From: Ignavibacteriota bacterium
GTDB taxonomy: Bacteria > Bacteroidota > Ignavibacteria > UBA10030 > BY39
NCBI GenBank assembly: GCA_003327435.1
Contig: QOQV01000013.1
Span: forward strand, 1-64,000
Direction of reading: 5' to 3'
Length of the DNA: 64,000 nucleotides
Positions 14,122 to 29,407 of the stretch are shown piece by piece. Positions within the stretch are counted from its first letter, which is position 1, and each line of letters starts with the position of its first letter. A model generated the notes under the pieces. That model saw only the letters and a program-made list of their open reading frames with translations, ran no database searches and was not told where the DNA came from. Made by a program: the position numbers and the translations under genes.

Positions 14122-16440
14122 CTATTCTTCTGAAAGCCAGATTTTGTATTCAGGTTCATCTTTTTCTTCTATTTCTGAAATAATTTCTTTACCTACTTTC
14201 TTTGTTAACAATCTTATAGTTTTAAAACTTTCTTTCTTTTGTTCAGAAGTTGAAAATATCTTAGAAAAATCTTCCTTGGAAAAATATATCTCAAATTTTC
14301 TTGTGTACTCTTCTAATCTCTTTAAATAATATGCAATATTTTCGTCAGGGAAATTTGGATCCCATTCCTCAGCAAATTTGCAATTTTCGTATGCTTTTAC
14401 ATTTGCATCAGAACCTGTAACATAGTATGCAACTCTATCTCCTACATTCCAATCCAAGCCTGACCTTATTGCTAATTCATATGCAGCATTTCTGTTTCTC
14501 TGATCTCTTTGAATGTCGTTAGAATATTTATAAAGCGGATCTTTCAATGTTTCGACTCTCATAAAATCCTGGATATTCCATTTGTGATTTACAATTTTGT
14601 CGTACAAATTTTTGTAAAATATGTGTAATTCGTAGAATTCTTCTCTTAAAATACAACTTATGCAGTTTTGTATCAGTACTTTACCAAATTTTTCAAGATT
14701 TTTAGAAATAAGTGCAGACCCTTTTATTTGAACACTATCATCATATTTTAATACTGCATAATTTTTCTTTTTATAACTCAGAAATCTCTTGTATTTACCT
14801 CCTAAAATTATATTTATTTCTTCGGGTAAGTAATTTGTAATTTCTTTTATTAACTTTTCTACTGCCTCACCAGATTCCATTTTATAAGGTGGCACAAAAT
14901 ATACACCATCTGTGTCAACTTCTATTACAGTACCATTTTGTGATTGTATGTGGTAAATAATCTTTTTCAGAATTTCCTGCCCTAACTCGGTAATTTTATT
15001 CGCCTTGTCGTAATCATTAAACAATCCTTTGTGATAAGCAAGGTATCCAAAATAGGTATTTATCAGAATTTTAAAATCTTCCTGAATGTAAAAGAGATAT
15101 TTTTTATCTTTGTTTTTTAGAAACTCATTTTTGTAATGAATTCTTAACCTTGCTAATTCTTTTAAAGAATCTATAAATACATTAATATAATCTGTAGATG
15201 GATTTAGATTGTACATCAAAATTAGGGTTGGATACATAGATTCAATATCGATATAATAGACATTATCAAATACACCTATGTAAAACAAATCTGTATATCC
15301 ACCAGAAATTTGTCTAGATGATTGTGGCGCTGGTAATGAATATTTTTTATGCACATATTCTCTCACAAACAATAACTCAATTTTGTGAGAAGATGGGAAT
15401 TCAATTATCTTTCCAGGATTTAATGGGAAAATCCTTGCTTGCTCGATAAATGACGGAAGGAAAAGCTCGCAGAGGTATTTAACGAAATAATTTTTCTCAA
15501 TACATAATGTTGCTGCATCAGAAGTGGTTTCCGGGTTATTTTGAAATTTAAATTTAAAATGTTCAGCAACTGTTTTAATATCATAGTTGTAAAATATTCT
15601 TCTATTTGGATCATAATCCTGAAGCAAATCTACAACATCAATTAGGTTTCTGCCAGCAACTGAGTATTTTGCTTTCTGGAGTGATTCTCTACTCTGTAAA
15701 GGATGTTCTATTAATTTAACATTTGAATTATCTCTACCGATTGCAAAATTTATATTATGCAGTTCGCATCTGGTTAAAATATAATAAATTATATCGTTGT
15801 GAAGCTCAAAACCTTCAATAATATCAGGGTTTAGTTTATTTATGATATTTATCAATTTTTGTAATATTGCTTTTTCGGATTTTTCTGTTTTTCCTAAGAT
15901 TGCTTCAAATCCTCTATTATCGGTTAATGCGATATAAGTTATTCTATCAGATTCCCTTCGTGGGTTGCTTGTTTTTTTCCCTGGTGTAATTACCTTGTCG
16001 ATGCTTATCTGTAAGCGGTGAATTTCATCATGTCCGATATTTTTAAAATGTGTAATCCCAGATTGAATTAAAAATTGAGTTTGACGATCAGGAATGAGAT
16101 AAATAATAGGCAGGTCTTCATAGGTTAAAGCTTTTTTAAGACTGGATTTATTGTACATTTCAAGAATGTTATGAATGCAATCCCACATATCAGACCACTT
16201 GTCGAAAGCTATAATATATTGGAAAAAATTATTCCCCTCTAATTTTCTTTTATAGTATCTCCTTTTAAAATTCTCGAGGTATTGCAAATCGTGGAGAAAA
16301 AAGAAAGGATAGAAATTGTAGTCGATATTTTCAGTGGAATTCTCTTTACGGACATAAATCCGCATTTTATTATCTTCGGTTGGATGAAGTCCGACGACTT
16401 TTTCTTGCGGATTATGTCCGTAAACTAATGTTTCTTGCAA
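14122..16440 (-). CDS. Divergent family-B DNA polymerase
   Basis: This 772-residue protein has intact polymerase motifs: A, YYIDIESMYPTLIL (Asp near residue 398); B, KILINTYFGYLAY (near 456); C, VIEVDTDGVYF (near 508). The N-terminal half resembles the DEDD exonuclease region (IALTDNRGFEAI, NPDIIEGFELHNDIIYY), but the exo I site that usually reads LQLDIE is here LQISID (residues 143-148), so the first catalytic Asp is Ser and the Glu is Asp. Proofreading is probably weak or absent. It differs from E. coli Pol II in length and motif context. It is the third gene of an nfeD-slipin-polB series, 3 bases after slipin. A repair or lesion-bypass role is inferred. Confidence 0.85.
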   Translation of the reverse strand: MQETLVYGHNPQEKVVGLHPTEDNKMRIYVRKENSTENIDYNFYPFFFLHDLQYLENFKRRYYKRKLEGNNFFQYIIAFDKWSDMWDCIHNILEMYNKSSLKKALTYEDLPIIYLIPDRQTQFLIQSGITHFKNIGHDEIHRLQISIDKVITPGKKTSNPRRESDRITYIALTDNRGFEAILGKTEKSEKAILQKLINIINKLNPDIIEGFELHNDIIYYILTRCELHNINFAIGRDNSNVKLIEHPLQSRESLQKAKYSVAGRNLIDVVDLLQDYDPNRRIFYNYDIKTVAEHFKFKFQNNPETTSDAATLCIEKNYFVKYLCELFLPSFIEQARIFPLNPGKIIEFPSSHKIELLFVREYVHKKYSLPAPQSSRQISGGYTDLFYIGVFDNVYYIDIESMYPTLILMYNLNPSTDYINVFIDSLKELARLRIHYKNEFLKNKDKKYLFYIQEDFKILINTYFGYLAYHKGLFNDYDKANKITELGQEILKKIIYHIQSQNGTVIEVDTDGVYFVPPYKMESGEAVEKLIKEITNYLPEEINIILGGKYKRFLSYKKKNYAVLKYDDSVQIKGSALISKNLEKFGKVLIQNCISCILREEFYELHIFYKNLYDKIVNHKWNIQDFMRVETLKDPLYKYSNDIQRDQRNRNAAYELAIRSGLDWNVGDRVAYYVTGSDANVKAYENCKFAEEWDPNFPDENIAYYLKRLEEYTRKFEIYFSKEDFSKIFSTSEQKKESFKTIRLLTKKVGKEIISEIEEKDEPEYKIWLSEE

Positions 16441-16443
16441 AAA

Positions 16444-17202
16444 TTACTTCTTATCTTTTTGAATAAACGGTGTTAATAAATCTATCGGTACAGGGAATAT
16501 TGTAGTCGAGTTTTTCTCTGAAGCAATTTCAGAAAGTGTTTGTAAGAATCTTAGTTGTAGCGACATTGCATTTTTGCTTAATTCGTTTGCTGCTTCAGCC
16601 AATCTCTGACTTGCCTGGAATTCACCTTCGGCATGAATTACTTTTGCTCTTCTTTCTCTCTCAGCTTCGGCTTGTTTTGCCATAGCCCTCTGCATCTCCT
16701 GTGGTAAATCAATGTGTTTTACTTCTACATTCGAAACTTTAATGCCCCAGGGTTCTGTTTGATGGTCTATGATTTTTTGTAACTCTCTGTTAATCTTTTC
16801 TCTTTCGGCAAGTAACTCATCTAATTCTGATTGTCCCAATACACTGCGCAAAGTTGTCTGAGAAAGCTGAGAAGTAGCAAACAGGTAATTTTCTACCTCA
16901 ACGATTGCTTTATCTGGATGCATTACTCTAAAATATACAACCGCATTTACTTTTATTGAAACATTATCTTTTGTTATTACATCCTGAGGGGGTACATCCA
17001 TTACAACAGTTCGTAAACTTACTTTTACCATACGATCAATAATTGGAATCAGTAAAATTAAACCTGGTCCTTTTACTGCTATTAATCTTCCCAGACGAAA
17101 TATCACGCCTCTTTCGTATTCTCTTAAGATTTTTATTGCATTTGAAAGAATGATGAGAAAGAATACAACAGCCATAATAATTAATGTTAATAACGGTTGC
17201 AT
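16444..17202 (-). CDS. Slipin/stomatin-like SPFH protein
   Basis: A 252-residue membrane protein: one N-terminal helix (about 5-24), then an SPFH domain beginning [12 protein letters not shown] with [12 protein letters not shown], and a C-terminal coiled coil rich in Glu/Arg/Ala ([20 protein letters not shown]). SPFH proteins oligomerize on membranes, and bacterial slipins are typically partnered by an NfeD protease, which is the gene just upstream in transcription. The family length and motifs are normal. Confidence 0.93.
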
Positions 17203-17219
17203 AGGTTGCTCCTTTTTTA

Positions 17220-18542
17220 TTAGTTATCTATTTTTCTAACTTTGAGCTTTAAGTTTAGAATTTCTTCGACTTTAATTTTTGATCCACGGTTTATGAATCC
17301 TTCAATACTTACTGCATTCCAGAGCTCGCCATGAACGCGTACCTGTCCTTCTGGATTTAAATCCTCAAGTGCTTCTCCAATTTCTCCAATTAATCCCTCA
17401 ATTCCTGTAGCTGGTTTTCTTAGTTGAGCTTTTATTCCATAACTAATTGCAAAAATGAAAAAGGCAGTTGTTAGTACAACCGCTATTAAAATAACTTGCC
17501 AGGATATTTCTATTACTTCCAAGGTCGACTCCGTATCTATTAACATTATTGAACCTAAAATTAATGATATTACTCCACCAATGGTCAATATACCATGGCT
17601 GACAATTTTTATTTCTAATATAAACAAAATTATTGCAAATATTATAAGTGCTAAACCTGCATAATTAATTGGCAATGTATGAAGCGAATAAAATGCAAGT
17701 ATTAAACTAATCACGCCAATCACACCGGGGAATATCGCACCTGGATTATAGAGCTCGAACATTATTCCATAAATTCCAATCATCATTAAAATGTATGCAA
17801 TATTTGGATCGCTAAGCAAATCAAGTATCTTCTGTTGGAAGTTCATTTCCAAATTGATTATCTCAGCACTTTTTGTGTTGAGCTTTTTAATTTTTCCATT
17901 AACATCAATTTCTTTTCCATCAAGGATGCTCTGTATTTCATAAACATTTGCTGCAATTGTATCGATAACTTTAAGTTTTAGTGCTTCCGTTTCTGTTATT
18001 GATAAGCTTTTTCTTACAGCATCTTCTGCCCATTGAATATTCCTTGCTCTTTTCTCACTAATTGTGCGAATAAAAGCAGCGGCATCATTTGTTGCTTTTT
18101 CATTCATAATTGAATCCTGTTCACCTTGAAGTGTAACTGGATGTGCAGCGCCAATATTTGTTCCGGGGGACATAATTGCTATGTGTGCTGCAAGAGTCAC
18201 AAACACTCCAGCTGATGCAGCTTGTGAACCTGATGGTGCAACATAAACAACTACTGGAATATCTGAGTTTAATATATCGCTTACAATTACCCTTGTTGAC
18301 TTTAGCAATCCACCAGGTGTGTTAAGTTTGATTACCAAACATTCAGCATTTTGTTCTTTAGCTTTTTTTATCCCTGAATTAATGTATTCTGCACTTGCAG
18401 GATTGATAGAACCATCGATGGTGATGACGATTATTTTAGATTTCAAATAATTATCACTTACGACACTTTGAATAGTTGAAAAAACTGAAGCTATCAGGAT
18501 AATAATTGAAAATATTAAATATTTTTGTTTTAATACATTCAT
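17220..18542 (-). CDS. NfeD-family membrane serine protease
   Basis: The long NfeD form (440 residues). After a signal/anchor helix, residues about 30-230 form a ClpP/SppA-like protease domain: [15 protein letters not shown], then [16 protein letters not shown], which contains the nucleophilic Ser, and [11 protein letters not shown]. Four to five membrane helices follow (about 245-370), and a C-terminal OB-fold (about 380-440; [10 protein letters not shown] ... [13 protein letters not shown]). In Pyrococcus the orthologue cleaves the slipin C-terminus, which supports a functional pair with the next gene. Confidence 0.93.
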
Positions 18543-18738: not shown

Positions 18739-18975
18739 ATGCCAACAACAACTGAAAAAAAGATAAAAGGTACAGTAGTAATTACTGTCGAAAGATGTAA
18801 GGGTTGTGGATTCTGTGTGGAGTTTTGCCCTTCGAAAGCTCTAAAACTTTCAGAGCAATTTAATTCGAAAGGTTATCATCCACCGGTGTTAATATCACAG
18901 GAGCTTTGTAATGGATGTGATATGTGTGGACTGTTATGTCCTGACTTCGCAATCTATGGAATTAGAATAAAATAA
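18739..18975 (+). CDS. korD: 2-oxoglutarate:ferredoxin oxidoreductase delta subunit
   Basis: A 78-residue ferredoxin with two 4Fe-4S motifs, CKGCGFCVEFCP and CNGCDMCGLLCP (C-x2-C-x2-C-x3-C each). It passes electrons between the KorAB active site and external ferredoxin. AAAGGA stands before the ATG. It leads the korDABC operon with gaps of 12, 0 and 11 bases. Confidence 0.92.
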   Translation: MPTTTEKKIKGTVVITVERCKGCGFCVEFCPSKALKLSEQFNSKGYHPPVLISQELCNGCDMCGLLCPDFAIYGIRIK

Positions 18976-18987
18976 TTAGGAGATAAG

Positions 18988-20151
18988 ATGAAATCAGATC
19001 CAAAAGCAGTCTTAACCGGTGCACATTTTCTTGATGGAGATCATGCTTGCAGCGAAGGTGCTATCGCTGCTGGTTGTAGATTTGTAGCTGGTTATCCCAT
19101 CACACCTTCAACTGAAGTGGTTGAAAGAATTGCAGAACGCTTCCCACTTATTGGTGGAGTGTTCATTCAGATGGAAGATGAAATTGCTTCTTCAATTGCA
19201 ATTCAAGGCGCTGTTTGGGCTGGGAAAAAAGCTATGACTGTTACTTCAGGTCCTGGCTTCTCGCTGATGATGGAACATATTGGTTTGGCAGCAATGACTG
19301 AGACACCCTGTGTTTTTGTTGATGTTCAGCGTGCAGGTCCTTCGACTGGCTTACCAACTCAACCAGCTCAGGGCGATATGATGCAGGCGCGTTGGGGATC
19401 ACACGGAGATTATGGTATCATCGCAATTTCTCCAAATTCACCTCAGGAATGTTTTGATTTAACTATAAAAGCATTTAACCTCTCTGAACAATATAGAGTC
19501 CCAGTATTGTTAATGATGGATGAATGTGTGGGACATATGACTGAACGCGTCATTATTCCACCAGCTGAAGAAATTGAAATATTTCCCAGGCGGTTTTACG
19601 ATGGTCCAAAAGATGAGTATCTACCATTTAAACCGGATGAAGACCTTGTACCAAAAATTGTAAAAGCAGGTGATGGCTATAGAATTCATATTACAGGATT
19701 AACTCACGATGAAAAAGGTTATCCTGTTATGACAGCTGCTGCGCAAGAGAAATTAATTCCAAGATTGGTTAATAAAATTAAATTCAATGCGGAAAAGATA
19801 ATAGAGTATAAAGAAGACAATATTGATGATGCTGATGTTGTAATTGTCTCATATGGAATTACATCTCGAGTTGCTATACCTGCAATTGAACAGGCAAGAA
19901 AAGAAGGTATAAAAGTTGGACATCTGAGATTAATTGTTGTCTGGCCATTTCCAGAAAAAAGAATTACTCAACTTGCCGGTCGAGTGAAAAGCTTTGTTGT
20001 ACCTGAATTGAATCAGGGACAGATATTTTATGAAGTCGAAAGGAATGCTTATGGTAAAGCACCTGTTTATTTAGTACCTCATGCTGGAGGTACTGTTCAT
20101 AATCCAAAAGATATTTATAACACAATCTTAAAAAGTTTAAAAGGTAAATAA
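18988..20151 (+). CDS. korA: 2-oxoglutarate:ferredoxin oxidoreductase alpha subunit
   Basis: The alpha subunit (387 residues) carries the pyrimidine-binding half of the enzyme. The region AGYPITPSTEVVERIAERFP is the family signature; EDEIASSIAIQGAVWAGKKA and TSGPGFSLMMEHIGL follow. The C-terminal domain (about 260-385) is transketolase-C-like. The four-subunit set oxidatively decarboxylates 2-oxoglutarate to succinyl-CoA, or runs in reverse in the reductive TCA cycle. Substrate assignment rests on overall similarity to KorA rather than on a diagnostic residue. Confidence 0.9.
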   Translation: MKSDPKAVLTGAHFLDGDHACSEGAIAAGCRFVAGYPITPSTEVVERIAERFPLIGGVFIQMEDEIASSIAIQGAVWAGKKAMTVTSGPGFSLMMEHIGLAAMTETPCVFVDVQRAGPSTGLPTQPAQGDMMQARWGSHGDYGIIAISPNSPQECFDLTIKAFNLSEQYRVPVLLMMDECVGHMTERVIIPPAEEIEIFPRRFYDGPKDEYLPFKPDEDLVPKIVKAGDGYRIHITGLTHDEKGYPVMTAAAQEKLIPRLVNKIKFNAEKIIEYKEDNIDDADVVIVSYGITSRVAIPAIEQARKEGIKVGHLRLIVVWPFPEKRITQLAGRVKSFVVPELNQGQIFYEVERNAYGKAPVYLVPHAGGTVHNPKDIYNTILKSLKGK

Positions 20152-21027
20152 ATGGACGAACAAATTTTAGAAATTGAAGAATCAATTCCTGTTAACCCTA
20201 TCGAATCGTTCTTAAGAACTGATCGTATGCCGCATATCTGGTGCCCGGGTTGCGGAATTGGAACAACCGTAAATTGTTTTACACGAGCCCTTGAAACAAG
20301 TGGATTGGATTTAAACAAAGTTAGTGTCGTTTCAGGCATTGGATGTACTGGAAGAGTAGCAGGTTATTTAAATTTAGATTCTTTCCATACGACACATGGC
20401 AGACCAATTCCTTTTGCTACAGGTTTGAAATTAGCAAATCCAGAATTGAAAGTGGTTGTATATAGTGGTGATGGAGATTTATTCGCAATTGGGGGAAATC
20501 ATTTTATTCATGCAGCAAGAAGGAACCTGGATATGACAGTAATTTGCGTAAATAATTCGATCTATGGTATGACTGGTGGTCAAGTCGCTCCAACCACACC
20601 GATTTCAGCGACTGCAAGTACAACTCCTCACGGAAATTTTGAACAACCTTTCAATTTGCCTTATCTTGCTGATTCATGTGGAGCGGTTTATGTGGCTCGC
20701 TGGACTGCATTTCATGTTCGTCATCTAACCAAATCGATTAAAGAAGCTCTGGCAAAAAAAGGGTTTTCATTCATAGAAATTTTAGCTCCTTGTCCGACTC
20801 TCTATAGTAGAAGAAATAAATTAGGTGATGGTTTAGACCAGATGATTTATTATAAAGAAAATAGTGAGATTAAACACGGTGCAGACACAAAAAGTGTTGC
20901 ACTTGATTTTCAGAGTAAAATTATTGTTGGAAAATTTGTAGATCGTGATAGACCGGATTACCTTACTCTAATGAATGAACATTACCAGAAAAAATTTGGC
21001 GATAAATATACACCGTATAAAGGATAA
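20152..21027 (+). CDS. korB: 2-oxoglutarate:ferredoxin oxidoreductase beta subunit
   Basis: The TPP-binding subunit (291 residues). HIWCPGCGIGTTVNCF begins the domain; GIGCTGRVAGY and YSGDGDLFAIGGNHFIHAAR carry the diphosphate/Mg site, ending with NNSIYGMTGGQVAPTTP. The ATG follows the korA stop directly. Confidence 0.92.
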   Translation: MDEQILEIEESIPVNPIESFLRTDRMPHIWCPGCGIGTTVNCFTRALETSGLDLNKVSVVSGIGCTGRVAGYLNLDSFHTTHGRPIPFATGLKLANPELKVVVYSGDGDLFAIGGNHFIHAARRNLDMTVICVNNSIYGMTGGQVAPTTPISATASTTPHGNFEQPFNLPYLADSCGAVYVARWTAFHVRHLTKSIKEALAKKGFSFIEILAPCPTLYSRRNKLGDGLDQMIYYKENSEIKHGADTKSVALDFQSKIIVGKFVDRDRPDYLTLMNEHYQKKFGDKYTPYKG

Positions 21028-21038
21028 AGGAATCGATT

Positions 21039-21593
21039 ATGAGAACTGAAATTAAAATAGGTGGATTTGGTGGACAGGGTGTAATCTTGAGTGGTTATAT
21101 CATTGGCAGGGCTGCCTCAATTTACGACAACAAATACGCCACAATGATACAATCGTTTGGTCCTGAAGCTCGAGGTAGTGCCTGTAGCGCTCAGGTAATT
21201 GTAGACCCTAATGAAATTGCTTACCCTTATATCGTACAGCCTCAAATCCTGATTGTTATGTCGCAAGAGGCATATACAAAATTTTCTACTGAACTTGCAC
21301 CTGGCGGAATATTAATCACAGAGGAGGAATTGGTTAATCCGATAAACCTGAGGAAAGATGTTATACATTATTCCATCCCTGCTACAAGATTTGCTGAAGA
21401 ACTCGGTAAAAGGTTGGTCGTAAATATAGTAATGATTGGATTTATGACAGCTGTTACAGAGCTTATTGACCCAGAAGCAATGCAAAAAGCTGTTATAGCA
21501 TCAGTTCCCAAAGGTACTGAAGATCTGAACTTAAAAGCGTTTAATAAAGGTTATGATTACGGTTTGAAATTAAAAAAGGAAAAAGCTAGCTAA
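21039..21593 (+). CDS. korC: 2-oxoglutarate:ferredoxin oxidoreductase gamma subunit
   Basis: The gamma subunit (184 residues) opens with IKIGGFGGQGVILSGYIIGR, the CoA-associated glycine-rich signature, followed by SFGPEARGSACSAQVIV. AAAGGA precedes the start. It completes the korDABC set and the operon probably ends here. Confidence 0.92.
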   Translation: MRTEIKIGGFGGQGVILSGYIIGRAASIYDNKYATMIQSFGPEARGSACSAQVIVDPNEIAYPYIVQPQILIVMSQEAYTKFSTELAPGGILITEEELVNPINLRKDVIHYSIPATRFAEELGKRLVVNIVMIGFMTAVTELIDPEAMQKAVIASVPKGTEDLNLKAFNKGYDYGLKLKKEKAS

Positions 21594-21629: not shown

Positions 21630-23249
21630 ATGAGAATTTTTGTCTTCATCGAAAAAGATTTTCCATATCTTGTTAATGTTCTTAAAAATAATTTTCCAGA
21701 TAGTGAAATTAAAGGTACTAACACTAAAAGTGATTTATTGGAAGAGATAGAGAAATTTAAACCTCAATTAGTAATTGCTAATTTTTATACTAACTCAGAT
21801 GTAGATTTAGTAAAGAAAATCACATCAAATTATCCTCTAATAATTATCTCGGATTATATTGAACCTGATACTGTTATTAATTTCCAGAAATCTGGAATTG
21901 TAGATTGGATACTATTCAGATATATCGATAGGATAGTCTTTACAATTAAAATAATCCAGAAAAAATTATTTTCTCCTTTGTTGGGAGAGATACACTATAA
22001 TAGGTTTACTGAAATAATTAATAGGGTTACTGATTATTCTATAATAATAGACACAAAGGGAAATATATTATCCTATAATGAATCGTTTGCTAAGAATTTC
22101 TCTAATGCTGAGATTTTACAAAAGAGGGATTTTTATTCATTAATTTTTTCTGAGGATCGAGAAAATTTTAGAAAAGTAATTAATGATGCTTTGTCTATAA
22201 ATATAATTGATTTCCCGGAATTACGACTTGAAATTGAGGGAAAGCTTATTTATACACAAGCTTTAGGACATTGTATACATAATGAAAGAAAAGAGGTTGA
22301 AAAAATTGTCCTTTTATTACACGATATAAGTCAACAAAAGGAATCTGAAAGCAAACTTAAAGAAAGTGAAAGGTTATTCAGAGCTATTGCAGAAACAGCT
22401 GCATTTTCTGTGTTTATTTATCAAGATAATAAATTTGTTTATATAAATCCTACAGCTGTTAAATTTCTCGGTTATTCAGAACAAGAATTAATGCAGATGA
22501 ATTTTTGGGATGTGGTGCATCCAGATTTTATTGATTTGGTGAAGGAAAGGGGATTAAGGCGATTAAAGGGAGAGCTAGTACCCGCAAGATACGAATTTAA
22601 AATTTTAAAAAAAGATAAAACGGAAAGATGGATCGACTTTAGTGCTACATTTATCGAATATAAGGGTAAACCTGCTGCTCTTGGAATAGCATTCGATATT
22701 ACAGACAGAAAGATAGCTGATGAAAAATTGAAGAGTTCACACGACTTTTATTTAAAACTGTTTAATGAATTTCCAACACTTTTATGGAGAACTGATCCAG
22801 ATGGCAATATGATTTTCTTCAATAAAACATGGTTAGATTTTCGTGGTAAAAAATTAGAAGAAGAAATAGCTGGTGGTTGGATCAGAGACATTCATCCTGA
22901 TGATGTTAAACTTGTTGTTGATGATTTCGAAATATCTTTTCATCAAAGGAAATCCTTTGAAATGGAGTATCGTATCAAAAATAGTCAAAATGTTTATAGA
23001 TGGGTGTATATTATTGGCTGCCCTTTTTATGATCCAGATAAAAAGTTCTCCGGTTTTATAGGTTCTGGCTACGATATAACTGACAAGAAGGAATACGAAG
23101 AAAAAATTAATAACCTGAATAAGGATTTACAAGATAAAATAAAAAATCTTGAAGATTTTAAATCTGTGGCAATTGAACGCGAACTTAAAATGATGGAATT
23201 AAAAGAAATTATAAAAAGAATTACTCAAAAAGAAAATGAGATTCTTTAG
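21630..23249 (+). CDS. Pseudo-receiver and triple-PAS signalling protein
   Basis: A 539-residue soluble protein without a catalytic domain. Residues 1-115 fold like a response-regulator receiver, but the phosphoacceptor position reads VIANFYT (Asn in place of Asp) and the conserved Lys is missing. Three PAS domains follow at about 130-232, 245-358 and 365-485, each ending with the usual DI(S/T)-x-(Q/R/K)K linker. The C-terminus is a coiled coil ending ERELKMMELKEIIKRI, a closing motif seen in complete PAS proteins, so this is not a truncated kinase. The last 14 bases overlap the next gene. It likely signals to the hybrid kinase two genes downstream. Confidence 0.85.
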   Translation: MRIFVFIEKDFPYLVNVLKNNFPDSEIKGTNTKSDLLEEIEKFKPQLVIANFYTNSDVDLVKKITSNYPLIIISDYIEPDTVINFQKSGIVDWILFRYIDRIVFTIKIIQKKLFSPLLGEIHYNRFTEIINRVTDYSIIIDTKGNILSYNESFAKNFSNAEILQKRDFYSLIFSEDRENFRKVINDALSINIIDFPELRLEIEGKLIYTQALGHCIHNERKEVEKIVLLLHDISQQKESESKLKESERLFRAIAETAAFSVFIYQDNKFVYINPTAVKFLGYSEQELMQMNFWDVVHPDFIDLVKERGLRRLKGELVPARYEFKILKKDKTERWIDFSATFIEYKGKPAALGIAFDITDRKIADEKLKSSHDFYLKLFNEFPTLLWRTDPDGNMIFFNKTWLDFRGKKLEEEIAGGWIRDIHPDDVKLVVDDFEISFHQRKSFEMEYRIKNSQNVYRWVYIIGCPFYDPDKKFSGFIGSGYDITDKKEYEEKINNLNKDLQDKIKNLEDFKSVAIERELKMMELKEIIKRITQKENEIL

Positions 23250-24819
23250 AATAATATTACCAGTTATCTTTTTTTTGCTTGTATTCTCCACATGTAATAA
23301 AAGAGATGAAAAAAAGCATCAAGAAGATAAATCAAAATATGGTGGAACATTACGCTTAATGCAAGATGTTCCTTACTCCCTTGATCCACTCTTTATGAGA
23401 AATGTTTATGAAAGTACAATTTTAAATCAGATTTTTAATGGACTTCTGGATTTGGATGATAATCTGAACATCGTTCCAGATATTGCAAAATATTGGGAGA
23501 TTTCGGGGGATAGAAAAATTTATAAATTTTATTTACAGGATAATGTATTTTTTCATAATGGAAGAAAAGTTACAGCAAAAGATTTCGTATACACATTCAA
23601 AAGAATCTTAAATTTTAGTAAAAAGGAGGATTTTCTTGGTATCGAATATCTTCAATTAATAGAAGGTGCACAGGATTTTTTAAATAATAAAACCAAGGAA
23701 ATATCAGGTTTAAAAATAATAGATTCTTTAACCTTAGAAATAATATTAACAGAACCCTGTACTCCCTTTCTTACGGTTTTATCAATGAACAATTTTAGTG
23801 TTGTTCCCAAAGAAGAAGTTGAGAATAATCCAAATTTTTCTTCCTCACCGGTTGGTACAGGTCCGTTTAAATTTAGTAGCTGGAAGGAGAATGAATATAT
23901 AATTCTTGAAGCATATGAAAAATATTTTGAGGGGCGCCCGTTTTTAGACACTCTAATCTTTTATATTCCTCAACATTTTACTTATGATGAGGAAATAGAT
24001 AAGTTTATCCGGGGCGAATTAGATGTAACGTATGTCTCAAGCAAAAGATTGGGTGAAATAAAGAATTCAAAAAGATATAAAGTTTTTAATCGTCCAGAAC
24101 TTTCAATTTATTTTTTAGGTATTAACCGTAATATCGCACCCTTTAATGATGAAAAATTACGTAAAGCAATTTTTTATGCAATAGATAATAAGAAATTTGA
24201 TGTAATATATGGCACAAGCAGATTAAGTGCGCACGGATTTATACCACCAGGACTTTTAGGCTATGATCCAGCCCATACTCACAAATATTATAATCTTGAT
24301 TCTGCTAAAAAGTTTTTAGAAGAATTTAAAATTAACTTTAATGGTAAGATTCCACGATTGAAACTCTTTACAGTATCAGGAAATGAAGAAAATGAAATCA
24401 AAAAGGATCTTGCAGGGATAGGTTTAGAAGTTGATGTTGTTGGTTTAAAATGGATTGAGCTTACAAAAAGTCTGGATAAGAAATCTTTGCCAATGTTTAC
24501 GCTCGGCTGGGTTGCTGATTTCCCTGATCCAGATGCATTCTTCTATAGTTTGATACATTCTTCTGGGAGTGCAAATTTCTTTCATCTAAAAAACAAAAAG
24601 ATAGATAGTTTATTGGTTTTAGGTAAAAAAGAAAACAATACCAACTATAGAGTTGATATCTATCAAAAAATTGAAAAAGAACTAGAATCTGAAGCAGTTA
24701 TTATACCTCTATATTATGGAATGAATACAGTTGCTACACATAATTATGTAAATGATTTTAATATAACGTCACTTGGTTTTATGAACATTAACCTCAAAAA
24801 GGTGTGGATACAGAAATGA
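23236..24819 (+). CDS. Family 5 substrate-binding lipoprotein (DppA/OppA-like)
   Basis: A 527-residue extracytoplasmic binding protein. The signal peptide ends in the lipobox VFSTC (Cys20). Family 5 marks: YGGTLRLMQDVPYSLDPLF, FHNGRKVTAKDFVYTFKRIL, VGTGPFKFSSW, and LRKAIFYAIDNKKF. Such proteins usually feed peptide/nickel ABC transporters, but no permease or ATPase gene is nearby. Instead it sits between a PAS protein and a sensor kinase, overlapping both, so it may deliver a ligand signal to the kinase's extracytoplasmic domain. That role is inferred from position only. Confidence 0.88.
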   Translation: MRFFRIILPVIFFLLVFSTCNKRDEKKHQEDKSKYGGTLRLMQDVPYSLDPLFMRNVYESTILNQIFNGLLDLDDNLNIVPDIAKYWEISGDRKIYKFYLQDNVFFHNGRKVTAKDFVYTFKRILNFSKKEDFLGIEYLQLIEGAQDFLNNKTKEISGLKIIDSLTLEIILTEPCTPFLTVLSMNNFSVVPKEEVENNPNFSSSPVGTGPFKFSSWKENEYIILEAYEKYFEGRPFLDTLIFYIPQHFTYDEEIDKFIRGELDVTYVSSKRLGEIKNSKRYKVFNRPELSIYFLGINRNIAPFNDEKLRKAIFYAIDNKKFDVIYGTSRLSAHGFIPPGLLGYDPAHTHKYYNLDSAKKFLEEFKINFNGKIPRLKLFTVSGNEENEIKKDLAGIGLEVDVVGLKWIELTKSLDKKSLPMFTLGWVADFPDPDAFFYSLIHSSGSANFFHLKNKKIDSLLVLGKKENNTNYRVDIYQKIEKELESEAVIIPLYYGMNTVATHNYVNDFNITSLGFMNINLKKVWIQK

Positions 24820-27203
24820 AGCTTATAAAATATTTCAGGCATTTAAATCTTCAAAATAAACTAATATTTTCAATCAGTTCTCTTTTTGTTTTAATATTTA
24901 TAACTTTGTTAGTAATTTTCAGGATTCAGATTTCAAATCAGTTATTTAATTTTGAGAAGGAAACTTTATTATCATTGGGAAATAGTATAGCATCTTCAAG
25001 CCTCAGGTCTTTATATATATATGACTATATAACAATTCAGAGGGATATTAGTAATATATCAGGAATTGGAGATTTAAGTTATGTAATAATTTATGATAGA
25101 AATAATATTCCAGTTGCGTCAACTTATTATTCGGAAAATTATAGAGAATTGCTTGAAAAAGTTCTTGAAGAAAAAAGTGAGTATTCTGAATCTTACAACA
25201 TAAATGAAAAAAGTGTGGTTATAAATAAAATTGAGTATAACTTAAGGGAGTTAACTCTACCTATTAAACATAAAGATCAAATATGGGGAAGTTTAAGATT
25301 GGCTGTTTCTTTAGACAATTTATATTCTTCGATTCGAAATGTTGAATATTTATTAATAGGTATAGGTTTGTTTGTTATAATATTAGTGGTTATGGGTTCA
25401 AGATATTTAACCAGAATAGTTTTTGAACCATTAAATCGTATGATTGATGCAACTGAAAAAATTGCTGGTGGTGATTTGAATGTTAAAGTCGATATTGATG
25501 CAGATGATGAAATAGGAAAACTTGCAAGGTCATTTAATAAAATGGTTGAGGATTTAAGAAATTCTCGAGAAGAAATAGAAAGGTGGGGAAAGGAACTTGA
25601 ACAGAAAGTACACGAAAGAACTATCCAACTTGAAAAATCTGAAAAAGCACTTTTGAATATTTTAATGGATATCAAAGAAGCTAATGAAAAATTAAAAGCT
25701 TCTGAAGAAAAATATAGACGGTTTTTTGAAGATGATTTAACAGGCGATTTTATCGCCACTCCTGATGGGAAACTTTTGGATTGTAATCCCGCATATGCTA
25801 AAATATTCGGTTATGATTCGGTAGAAGAGATAAAGAAAGAAAATACCCATCAGAGATATCCATCTCCTCAGGCAAGAGAAGAATTTTTGAAATTGCTAAA
25901 AGAGAAAAAACAGTTATACAATTACGAAATAGAACTAAGAAAAAAAGATGGCTCACCATTGTATATTATAGAAAATGTTTTTGCTGAATTAAGCGAGAAT
26001 GGTGAAATTAAAACTATCAGAGGTTATTTGTTTGATAATACAGAAAGAAAAAAACTGGAAGAAAAATTATTACATTCTCAAAAAATGGAAGCAATTGGAA
26101 CTCTTGCTGGTGGAATTGCACACGACTTTAACAATGTTATGGGAATTGTATTGGGTGTATTGGATATGATTGGGATGAAGGTTCAATCGAATGAAATACA
26201 AAAATTGTTGGATATGGGAAAGAAAGCAATAGAAAGAGGTGCCGGAGTTGCTAAACAACTACTTTTGTTTGCAAGAGCAGAGAAAGGAAAGTTTTCTGCT
26301 GTTAAATTTTCAACTATTATAAAAGAAGTTGTTAATATATTAAGGCATTCTTTTCCAAAGAATATTGAGATAGAAGTAATTCTTAAAGCTCAGAATGAAA
26401 ATGTTTATGCAGATAGTACCCAACTCCATATGGTTTTACTTAATTTATGTGTAAATTCCAGGGATGCAATGCCAGGTGGGGGCAAATTGACAATCTCAAT
26501 CTATAATGTTTCCGGACAAGAACTCAGTAATAAATTTGTACAGGCAAATAAAGATCAATATGTTGCACTTGAAGTAAAAGATACTGGTATCGGGATGACA
26601 AAAGAAGTGATGGGCAGAATTTTTGATCCCTTCTTTACCACAAAAGAAATAGGAAAAGGTACTGGATTAGGACTTTCTATAATATATGGAATTGTAAATG
26701 CACACAATGCATTCATTGACGTTGAATCTGAACCAGGAAAAGGAACTACATTTAGGGTTTATTTCCCAGCCCTGGAAATAGTTGAAACACAACCACAGGA
26801 TATTACCACCGTTTATAATTTAAAAGGTTCAGAGACAATACTACTTGTTGAAGATGAAGAATTTTTATTATCAACAGTAAAGAATTTATTGCAGGAAGCT
26901 GGCTATACCGTGCTCACAGCATCCAATGGTTATGAAGGTTTGAAGGTTTACATGGATAATTACAAAAATATTGATCTCGTTATCACAGACCTGGGACTAC
27001 CTAAAATGACGGGAGATGAAATGTTTCTCGAAATAAAAAAAATAAATCCAAATGTATTTACCATTATAATGACTGGTTATATACAACTGGAAAAAAGATC
27101 AGAACTTTATAAACTTGGGATAAAAGAGATTCTTTCCAAACCTTTGCACTTTGATCAAATACTTAAAACAGTACGTACAACACTTGATATGGTTAAAAAA
27201 TAG
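24816..27203 (+). CDS. Hybrid sensor histidine kinase
   Basis: The protein of about 795 residues has two membrane helices (about 13-35 and 178-200) flanking an extracytoplasmic sensor region, then HAMP (about 200-253), a coiled coil, PAS (about 290-405), HisKA with the phospho-His in GGIAHDFNNVMGI, HATPase (NLCVNSRDAMPGGG, DTGIGM, GKGTGLGLSI) and a C-terminal receiver (ILLVEDEE, phosphoacceptor in VITDLGLPKMTG, SKPL). The chosen start ATG 24816 overlaps the upstream stop (ATGA); GTG 24804 would add four residues. No partner regulator follows it. Confidence 0.93.
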   Translation: MKLIKYFRHLNLQNKLIFSISSLFVLIFITLLVIFRIQISNQLFNFEKETLLSLGNSIASSSLRSLYIYDYITIQRDISNISGIGDLSYVIIYDRNNIPVASTYYSENYRELLEKVLEEKSEYSESYNINEKSVVINKIEYNLRELTLPIKHKDQIWGSLRLAVSLDNLYSSIRNVEYLLIGIGLFVIILVVMGSRYLTRIVFEPLNRMIDATEKIAGGDLNVKVDIDADDEIGKLARSFNKMVEDLRNSREEIERWGKELEQKVHERTIQLEKSEKALLNILMDIKEANEKLKASEEKYRRFFEDDLTGDFIATPDGKLLDCNPAYAKIFGYDSVEEIKKENTHQRYPSPQAREEFLKLLKEKKQLYNYEIELRKKDGSPLYIIENVFAELSENGEIKTIRGYLFDNTERKKLEEKLLHSQKMEAIGTLAGGIAHDFNNVMGIVLGVLDMIGMKVQSNEIQKLLDMGKKAIERGAGVAKQLLLFARAEKGKFSAVKFSTIIKEVVNILRHSFPKNIEIEVILKAQNENVYADSTQLHMVLLNLCVNSRDAMPGGGKLTISIYNVSGQELSNKFVQANKDQYVALEVKDTGIGMTKEVMGRIFDPFFTTKEIGKGTGLGLSIIYGIVNAHNAFIDVESEPGKGTTFRVYFPALEIVETQPQDITTVYNLKGSETILLVEDEEFLLSTVKNLLQEAGYTVLTASNGYEGLKVYMDNYKNIDLVITDLGLPKMTGDEMFLEIKKINPNVFTIIMTGYIQLEKRSELYKLGIKEILSKPLHFDQILKTVRTTLDMVKK

Positions 27204-27253: not shown

Positions 27254-29407
27254 ATGAATGAAATTAAACGCATAGCTAAAGGGTTTTTCTGGAACCAGGT
27301 CGGAAGATCACTTGAATATGTTTTAATCTTCCTCCTTTCTATAATAATTGCAAAATTCCTGGGTTCCCAGTTAAACGGAATATATGCATCAATCCTCAGT
27401 CTTGTATTTTTCTTTAGTGCAATATCTTCCTTAGGAATTGAAACCGCAGTAAATTCTACATTTCCAAAATATTTTGGAGCTGAAATATCCAGAGCTGCTT
27501 CTGCAATCAGAAAACTATTATTATTCCGAATATTATCAACAATACTTATCGGTGGCATACTATATATATTTCAAATCTACATTTCTAAAGCACTTAATAT
27601 TTCAGATTATGTAATTGAATATTTTCTTTATGTAATCTGTTTTTATGCTTTGAAAAATATTATATCTCTACTTAATTCTTTTTTGATTTCTTTTTTTAAA
27701 ACCAAAGCTGGATATACAATAGCTGTTGCCATCAGGATTTTTGAAGTTGTAAGTGTCTACTTTCTTATAATTTATGGATATGGGCTAAGAGAAATATTTA
27801 TCTTACTTGTTGTTTCCAATCTTCTTCAATTAATAGCTTTATTTACTTATTTACATAAATCAATTTGGCATAAAAATGCTCAAGAGGTAGAAATAAAAGA
27901 TATTATTTTTCTTGGCATAAAATTCTGGCTTAACTCAATGCTCGAATTTTTGTTCGGTAAGCAAGCAGTGATTCTTATTTTAGGAATTTTCTCTATCGGT
28001 TTTTATGATATCGGTAATTTAGATGTATCTTTCAGTTTTGCCCAGGCAATTAACATTGGACTAACAATTGGTTTATATGGGGTATCTGTTGCCGCATTTT
28101 CAACTATTGAAGAAAAAGGGAAAAAAGTCTTAAGCGAATATTGGATAACAATTAACAGGTTTATATTAATTATATTAATTCCTGCATTTATATTTTTTAT
28201 CATATTTGCAAAAAGCATCGTCCTGACTGTTTATTCTGAACAATATCTGAAAAGCGTTTTATGGTTTCAGATTTTTGCATTTGTATTTATTGTAACAAGA
28301 GTTTTTGGTGGTGGTGTTGCCGCTGATTACTTGCAATCCAGACAAATGGTCCGAGCACTTCTTGTCTCAAGTTTAATCTGCGGAGTCGTAACTGTTGCTT
28401 TAACTCCAATCTTAATTTATTATTTTGGGATTTATGGAGCAGTAGGTGCTCTTGTTATCTCAAATTTACTAATTGCTCTGTTACATTTTCATTTTGTCAG
28501 GAAAGTGTTTGATGCAAAAATTGATGTGAGTTTTACTATAAAAATCTTACTAATAAGTGTAATTTCAGCTTTTGCCGTCGTTCAGTTTAATAGTATTTTA
28601 AATTATTCAAATATTCCTGTTTCTATTGTAACTTATCTTATGTTTGCACTTGTTGTATTTAGAATTATAAAACCGCTTAACTTTCGTGATATTGAAATAA
28701 TAAATAAAATTAATCCTCGTATAGCAAATATCGCAAAGAAATTTGCCTCCGTGTGTATTCCATTAACAGACAGGCAAAAATGGGCATTTAACTGGTTAGA
28801 GGAATCAGAAATTGTTCTTGATATCGGATGTTCAAATACACCTTTGATTAATTATCTTTCTGCAAAGAGTAAAATTGTGATAGGAATTGATAGTGATTTA
28901 CAGGCTTTAAGATCTATCAATAAAGGTAAATTTTATTTGATTTCTGCATCTGCTGAAAATCTTCCAATTGATTCCGAAGTTGTTGATACTGTATTAATGC
29001 TTGATGTGTTAGAACATTTAGATAACGATAAAATGGCATTAGCAGAGGCATGGCGTGTGTTAAAGAAAGATGGTGTGTTGATCTTATCCGTTCCTTATAA
29101 GGGTTTGTTTAAATTTCTTGATCCAGAAAACCTCTCTCGAAAAATAAAAAACAAAAAAAATACAAAGTACCATAAACATTATTCCTACAGGGATCTGAGA
29201 AGATTACTTTTCAGATTGTTCAAAATAGAGAAACTTCACTACGGTGGTTTATTCTTGTATCCAATTACCTTCGGAATTAATAATTTTATGAAGAGACATT
29301 TTGGAATTGACCTGAGTAATTTCTGGAAAAAAATAGGAGACATAGATAATGATATCTCCTGGGGTAGATTAAGTTATAATGTGATTTTAAAAGCAAGAAA
29401 AATATGA
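27254..29407 (+). CDS. Polysaccharide flippase fused to a methyltransferase
   Basis: Residues 1 to about 490 are a MATE/Wzx-type flippase with about 12-14 hydrophobic helices, beginning KRIAKGFFWNQVGRSLEYVL. Residues about 500-717 are a class I SAM methyltransferase: motif I VLDIGCSNTPLINYL (near 521), IGIDSD, then MLDVLEHLDND and AWRVLKKDGVLILSVP. The two parts are usually separate genes in O-antigen or exopolysaccharide clusters. There is no stop or frameshift at the junction. It probably moves and modifies a lipid-linked glycan. The stop overlaps the next glycosyltransferase gene (ATGA). Confidence 0.88.
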   Translation: MNEIKRIAKGFFWNQVGRSLEYVLIFLLSIIIAKFLGSQLNGIYASILSLVFFFSAISSLGIETAVNSTFPKYFGAEISRAASAIRKLLLFRILSTILIGGILYIFQIYISKALNISDYVIEYFLYVICFYALKNIISLLNSFLISFFKTKAGYTIAVAIRIFEVVSVYFLIIYGYGLREIFILLVVSNLLQLIALFTYLHKSIWHKNAQEVEIKDIIFLGIKFWLNSMLEFLFGKQAVILILGIFSIGFYDIGNLDVSFSFAQAINIGLTIGLYGVSVAAFSTIEEKGKKVLSEYWITINRFILIILIPAFIFFIIFAKSIVLTVYSEQYLKSVLWFQIFAFVFIVTRVFGGGVAADYLQSRQMVRALLVSSLICGVVTVALTPILIYYFGIYGAVGALVISNLLIALLHFHFVRKVFDAKIDVSFTIKILLISVISAFAVVQFNSILNYSNIPVSIVTYLMFALVVFRIIKPLNFRDIEIINKINPRIANIAKKFASVCIPLTDRQKWAFNWLEESEIVLDIGCSNTPLINYLSAKSKIVIGIDSDLQALRSINKGKFYLISASAENLPIDSEVVDTVLMLDVLEHLDNDKMALAEAWRVLKKDGVLILSVPYKGLFKFLDPENLSRKIKNKKNTKYHKHYSYRDLRRLLFRLFKIEKLHYGGLFLYPITFGINNFMKRHFGIDLSNFWKKIGDIDNDISWGRLSYNVILKARKI

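Follow-up and report, generated by a model that had tools for sequence, protein, structure and literature searches.

Organization of the locus

The window, i.e., the whole analysed stretch of 64,000 nucleotides, contains a gene for a peptide-type binding lipoprotein of the SBP_bac_5 family, located between the genes for a PAS-domain protein and a hybrid histidine kinase. SBP_bac_5 proteins work with permeases of the OppBC type, and the question raised by this locus is whether the lipoprotein takes part in import or in signalling through the kinase encoded directly downstream, and whether the PAS protein belongs to the same system.

Three plus-strand open reading frames (21630-23249, 23236-24819 and 24804-27203) were found in the ORF list of the window, with the end-to-end overlaps described in the original prediction (Table 1). 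The predicted start of the kinase is most likely ATG 24816 rather than GTG 24804, because the kinase of the congener (G001, the only genome of the same genus compared) starts there with the same ATGA overlap; from this ATG, the kinase gene overlaps the stop codon of the lipoprotein gene by 4 bp (ATGA).

Table 1. Genes of the studied locus and of the kor cluster upstream of it.
Feature	Position	Strand	Characteristics
2-oxoacid:ferredoxin oxidoreductase (kor) cluster	18739-21593	+	domain matches; same order in the congener
kor ferredoxin-type subunit	18739-18975	+	translated ORF
kor alpha	18988-20151	+	domain match
kor beta	20152-21027	+	domain match
kor gamma	21039-21593	+	domain match
PAS-only protein, 539 aa	21630-23249	+	degenerate receiver, three PAS domains, C-terminal coiled coil
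SBP_bac_5 peptide-type (Opp/Dpp-type) binding lipoprotein, 527 aa	23236-24819	+	PF00496, lipobox Cys20
Hybrid histidine kinase, 795 aa from ATG 24816	24816-27203	+	TM-periplasmic-TM-HAMP-PAS-HisKA-HATPase_c-receiver

The kor cluster ends 36 bp before the PAS gene, and no terminator-like site was seen in a sequence scan of the plus strand between kor gamma and the PAS gene. The kor cluster and the sensor genes are likely to form a single transcript, in which kor is the context and lies outside the sensor. Promoter-like matches were fewer than in shuffled sequence (35 versus a mean of 43), so no promoter is claimed. Enzymes of the 2-oxoacid oxidoreductase type act on amino-acid-derived 2-oxoacids, and the location of the sensor genes behind kor would fit peptide or amino-acid catabolism; this link is only suggestive, the NCBIfam equivalog passed by kor alpha being generic.

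The minus strand adjoining kor (16444-18542) encodes a pair of a stomatin/SPFH-like protein and an NfeD/ClpP-like protease, an arrangement repeated in the congener. A family B DNA polymerase (PF00136 and an exonuclease domain), matched weakly by DNA polymerase II models, is encoded on this bacterial chromosome at 14122-16440 of the same strand. The 717-aa membrane protein encoded at 27254-29407 is flippase-like, has a methyltransferase part at its C-terminus and is kept in the congener beside glycosyltransferases.

The binding lipoprotein and the absence of a permease

The lipoprotein has a signal peptide with the lipobox FST/C20 and covers the full SBP_bac_5 domain (E=2.9e-72, positions 1-367 of 368); structures of OppA, DppA and DppE are among its best PDB matches. 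In the motif W425-V-A-D428, D428 aligns with Asp419 of OppA (1b05), the aspartate that holds the peptide amino terminus in OppA. Since D428 is kept, the ligand of the window lipoprotein is predicted to be a short peptide or a similar alpha-amino compound. The W-x-A-D motif was also found in stand-alone homologs and in the closer Opp-linked ones, with A sometimes replaced by G, S or V. No close homologs in named species were detected in the first scan, and the second gave only the congener (L116) and stand-alone relatives with 25-32% identity. The 79%-identical hit is CALCJK010000018.1; the named relatives of the SBP belong to Bacteroidota, a lead rather than a classification.

The window lipoprotein is encoded by the sole SBP_bac_5 gene of its genome, which is 98.6% complete. 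Two BPD_transp_1 genes are present in this genome, both of the MalFG type and directly preceded in their cluster by a binding lipoprotein of their own; the permeases of the congener are of the MalFG type and PstCA. No Opp/Dpp permease was detected in the window genome or in the congener by the PF00528 search, and the OppB-specific PF19300 is absent from both. The original description of a binding lipoprotein without transporter genes thus applies to the neighbourhood and, as regards Opp/Dpp permeases, to the whole genome. A cognate permease encoded elsewhere, which had been proposed as a check, was rejected, because the PF00528 and PF19300 searches of the 98.6%-complete genome revealed none of the Opp type. 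Accordingly, the only SBP_bac_5 protein of the genome has no known transporter to serve. In other genomes of the same order, most SBP_bac_5 matches adjoin OppB. The absence of the usual peptide importer and the gene unit shared with a kinase indicate that the lipoprotein probably senses its ligand and does not import it.

The hybrid kinase and the PAS protein

The kinase contains two transmembrane segments near residues 16-35 and 173-195, separated by a periplasmic domain of about 140 aa. Its cytoplasmic part is represented by HAMP and PAS domains, a weak HisKA match below the cut-off (0.0019), HATPase_c (1.4e-23) and a receiver (4.7e-22), with the phospho-accepting residues His436 (HDFNN) and Asp725 of the receiver. 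The periplasmic domain gave a weak match to sCache_3_2 (E=0.01), that of the congener ortholog gave a weak match to CHASE8 (E=0.03), and distant homologs match sCache_3_2 or CHASE8 at 1e-6 to 1e-11; the model of the domain, made from two sequences, was poor (pLDDT 47). The pair of transmembrane segments, Asp725 and the weak Cache/CHASE8 matches agree with the initial description of a hybrid kinase with an extracytoplasmic sensor domain. No gene for a DNA-binding output is present within the operon.

No kinase or output domain was found in the PAS protein by the Pfam domain search, and its N-terminus has no match in Pfam. The single-sequence model of the N-terminus has receiver topology (pLDDT 65 overall and 71-86 over residues 1-70), and the fold search with it gave matches to receivers such as the CheY-like domain of TadZ and Spo0A. 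The position of the phospho-accepting aspartate at the end of beta-3 is occupied by Asn52 (QLVIAN), so this receiver, having no phosphorylatable aspartate, cannot be phosphorylated in the usual way. On the basis of the model, the N-terminus may be assigned with moderate confidence to pseudo-receivers at the fold level, and the three PAS domains were found as predicted. Within the window genome, the PAS protein and the kinase share their best paralogous match, the ORF of a 1519-aa PAS-rich hybrid kinase (G000, contig C1:97733-99859); the picture in the congener is similar (C22).

Comparison with the congener

In the congener, the order kor-SBP-kinase-flippase is the same as in the window, with 78% identity for the SBP and 83% for the kinase. 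The SBP and the kinase are under purifying selection, with dN/dS (NG86) of about 0.11 and 0.08, respectively, at dS near saturation. The periplasmic domain of the kinase is 73% identical between the two species and the core 90%, i.e., the periplasmic part changes faster. The translational overlap of the SBP and kinase genes is kept in both species.

The space of about 305 bp between kor gamma and the SBP gene of the congener contains a remnant of the PAS gene (L019:10817-11120; blastn 76% over 119 bp, E=2e-20; tblastx E=5e-16), in which about 75 codons are followed by a stop. Given this location of the remnant, the PAS gene was most likely already present in the operon of the common ancestor and was lost in one lineage; its truncation makes the PAS protein at most an optional accessory. 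The exact three-gene set of the original prediction is therefore not retained: as for the separation of the genes in relatives, the SBP and kinase genes remain together, but the PAS gene has decayed. The SBP-kinase pair of the window type is known from these two genomes of one genus.

Distribution of SBP-kinase operons in the class

A census of 391 class-level genomes with the window-SBP profile at 1e-20, in which OppB was scored by PF19300, revealed an SBP_bac_5 match in 125 genomes. OppB is absent from six of these 125, namely, the two genomes of the window genus (G000 and G001), G072, G205, G278 and G337. The loci of the last four were inspected after the OppB-less list had been fixed, as a test of the predicted linkage to a kinase. 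The SBP gene is located directly upstream of a kinase gene in all four, overlapping or nearly abutting a gene of the TM-periplasmic-TM-HAMP-kinase type, and a gene for an NtrC-type regulator follows the kinase gene in each of the three loci with enough contig. The order SBP-kinase-NtrC is also present in G022, where it was seen before the OppB-less list. A profile built from four of these kinase-linked SBPs sets the group cleanly apart, with matches at 1e-160 or better and then at 1e-88, and added G313 and G227 with the same gene order. In G107, a partial SBP gene at the contig end is followed by kinase and NtrC genes. SBP-kinase-NtrC operons were thus found in eight genomes belonging to five families of the class (loci L130, L131, L132, L133, L096, L164, L165 and L166). 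Since G022, G227, G313 and G107 contain OppB, these operons are not confined to OppB-less genomes.

No kinase gene was found directly beside the SBP gene at about 28 stand-alone loci (mostly with flanks of 5-6 kb) or at about 30 Opp-linked or top-profile loci (flanks of 1.5 kb). In the class, SBP_bac_5 lipoproteins commonly stand alone with no permease gene next to them, and most such genomes contain OppB elsewhere; accordingly, the absence of a neighbouring permease alone does not imply sensing. At L099 and L115, the stand-alone SBP_bac_5 lipoproteins occur as tandem pairs, again with no permease beside them.

No PAS/pseudo-receiver gene was found beside the SBP-kinase-NtrC operons. The periplasmic domain is larger in the NtrC-linked kinases, which are non-hybrid, than in the hybrid kinase of the window with its short Cache/CHASE8-like domain. 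The five NtrC-linked SBPs that were aligned all have M-x-P-S/L at the W-x-A-D position, i.e., the equivalent of Asp419 is replaced, and from this alignment they are not predicted to bind peptides in the way of OppA Asp419. The motif is likewise absent from a more distant Opp-linked group of SBPs.

Origins of the SBP-kinase linkage

In the SBP tree of 57 rows, which included five SBPs of the NtrC type, these five cluster in one clade (100/100), and the SBPs of the window genus lie on a long branch of their own, closer to stand-alone and Opp-linked proteins. On this tree, two changes of the kinase-linked label are required, and one origin was obtained in 2% of bootstrap trees; the linkage of SBP and kinase probably arose twice, separately. 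A single origin of both groups was rejected on these grounds, an exclusion weakened by the long window branch. Chances are about even that, class-wide, lipoproteins of the Opp/Dpp type were recruited from import to signalling at least twice and independently, once for peptide sensing with a hybrid kinase in the window genus and once within an NtrC operon of five families for a different ligand. Within such a reading, the NtrC-linked SBPs would sense a different ligand because they have lost the aspartate for the peptide amine.

Possible function of the lipoprotein and the kinase

It is rather likely that the SBP_bac_5 lipoprotein and the hybrid kinase together form a sensor that depends on the binding protein. 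With its anchor in the envelope, the lipoprotein would bind a short peptide or a comparable alpha-amino compound. When loaded (or when empty), it would dock on the kinase's periplasmic domain of the Cache/CHASE8-like type, by analogy with LuxPQ, TorTS, CuaDSR and PgtCBA. Docking would alter the autophosphorylation of His436, from which the phosphate would reach Asp725 of the attached receiver and then a further regulator; the PAS protein would be an ancestral and dispensable member of the operon. Observed directly were the gene order and overlaps, the domains, the lack of an Opp/Dpp permease, the pair kept and the PAS gene lost in the congener, purifying selection and the like arrangement in a second SBP clade; the docking, the ligand class, the direction of signalling and co-transcription are inferred. 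The original idea of a binding-protein-assisted kinase gains from the lack of a permease, the pair kept in the congener and the four further OppB-less genomes, but does not extend to the three-gene set.

Adjacency is not proof of coupling: the SBPs encoded close to AgtS and AruS of Pseudomonas aeruginosa showed no role in activating them (PMC11113362). The lipoprotein could be a peptide scavenger, a chaperone or a relic of a lost Opp system, co-transcribed by chance with an unrelated kinase that senses a ligand of its own through the Cache-like domain. Many SBP_bac_5 lipoproteins of the class do stand alone, and kinase genes are so abundant (the kinase query gave 99 first-look candidates in its own genome) that chance adjacency of SBP and kinase in one genus is conceivable; moreover, the periplasmic domain resembles self-sufficient Cache/CHASE8 sensors, so the kinase might bind a ligand directly. 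However, the lipoprotein is under purifying selection though no Opp permease is present, both species retain the SBP-kinase overlap even though the adjoining PAS gene decayed, and a second SBP clade shows the same arrangement, all of which makes this explanation fairly unlikely.

The earlier full model, in which all three proteins form one sensor and the PAS/pseudo-receiver protein is a cytoplasmic modulator of the kinase, agrees with the overlap of the genes in the window, with the ancestral position of the PAS gene between kor gamma and SBP and with the paralogous match that each of the three proteins has in the C1:97733-99859 ORF, though PAS domains match promiscuously. It is improbable, as the only congener keeps the SBP and the kinase with a truncated remnant of the PAS gene, and no such gene lies beside the SBP and kinase genes of the second clade. 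That the lipoprotein serves a non-Opp transporter elsewhere, for example, the MalFG-type permease, with an incidental kinase neighbour, is highly improbable: one ABC importer permease pair is indeed present in the genome, but it has its own binding lipoprotein directly upstream, and the OppBC-type permeases used by SBP_bac_5 proteins are absent.

Comparison with known systems and significance

Kinases assisted by binding proteins are known for sugars, autoinducer-2, TMAO, citrate and phosphoglycerate. In the systems LuxP-LuxQ, TorT-TorS and XylFII-LytS, a periplasmic or extracellular binding protein signals via the outer domain of the kinase, LuxQ and TorS being hybrid. They differ from the window pair in that the binding proteins belong to other SBP families, the sensor domains are different and no SBP_bac_5 partner is involved. 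In E. coli, the SBP_bac_5 protein DppA presents dipeptides to the transmembrane chemoreceptor Tap; there, the receptor is a chemoreceptor and DppA also serves a permease, whereas a kinase is encoded in the window instead. XylFII-LytS and TorS are cited in PMC9602780, whose references also include, for DppA and Tap, Nature 321:253; LuxPQ is cited in PMC11113362.

In the CuaD-CuaS-CuaR system of Ruminiclostridium cellulolyticum, an extra SBP, which is not the importer's own, binds the kinase and improves ligand detection (PMC10384115). The likeness lies in the SBP encoded beside a two-component system, but CuaD-CuaS-CuaR has a cellobiose SBP, a separate response regulator and a partner importer, whereas the window encodes an SBP_bac_5 protein and a hybrid kinase without an importer. 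The closest layout to the SBP-kinase-NtrC operons is that of PgtC-PgtB-PgtA in Salmonella, in which the signal passes from the sensor PgtC to the kinase PgtB and the response regulator PgtA, a model domain of PgtA being predicted to contact sigma-54 (PMC11077982). One of the NtrC-linked kinases has a match of 6e-32 to the PgtB model, spanning the HAMP and kinase parts. PgtCBA differs from the window system in its ligand, 3-phosphoglycerate, and in that the window has a hybrid kinase and no NtrC gene in the operon.

The search of the open-access literature gave no account of a histidine kinase coupled to an SBP_bac_5 protein. Among the SBP families of model bacteria, SBP_bac_5 is one of the two with the most members (PMC9602780). 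If the proposed function is true, it would give a simple testable genomic rule, by which an SBP_bac_5 protein in a genome lacking OppB implies a kinase partner, and a means of separating sensing from importing members of SBP_bac_5 in environmental genomes.
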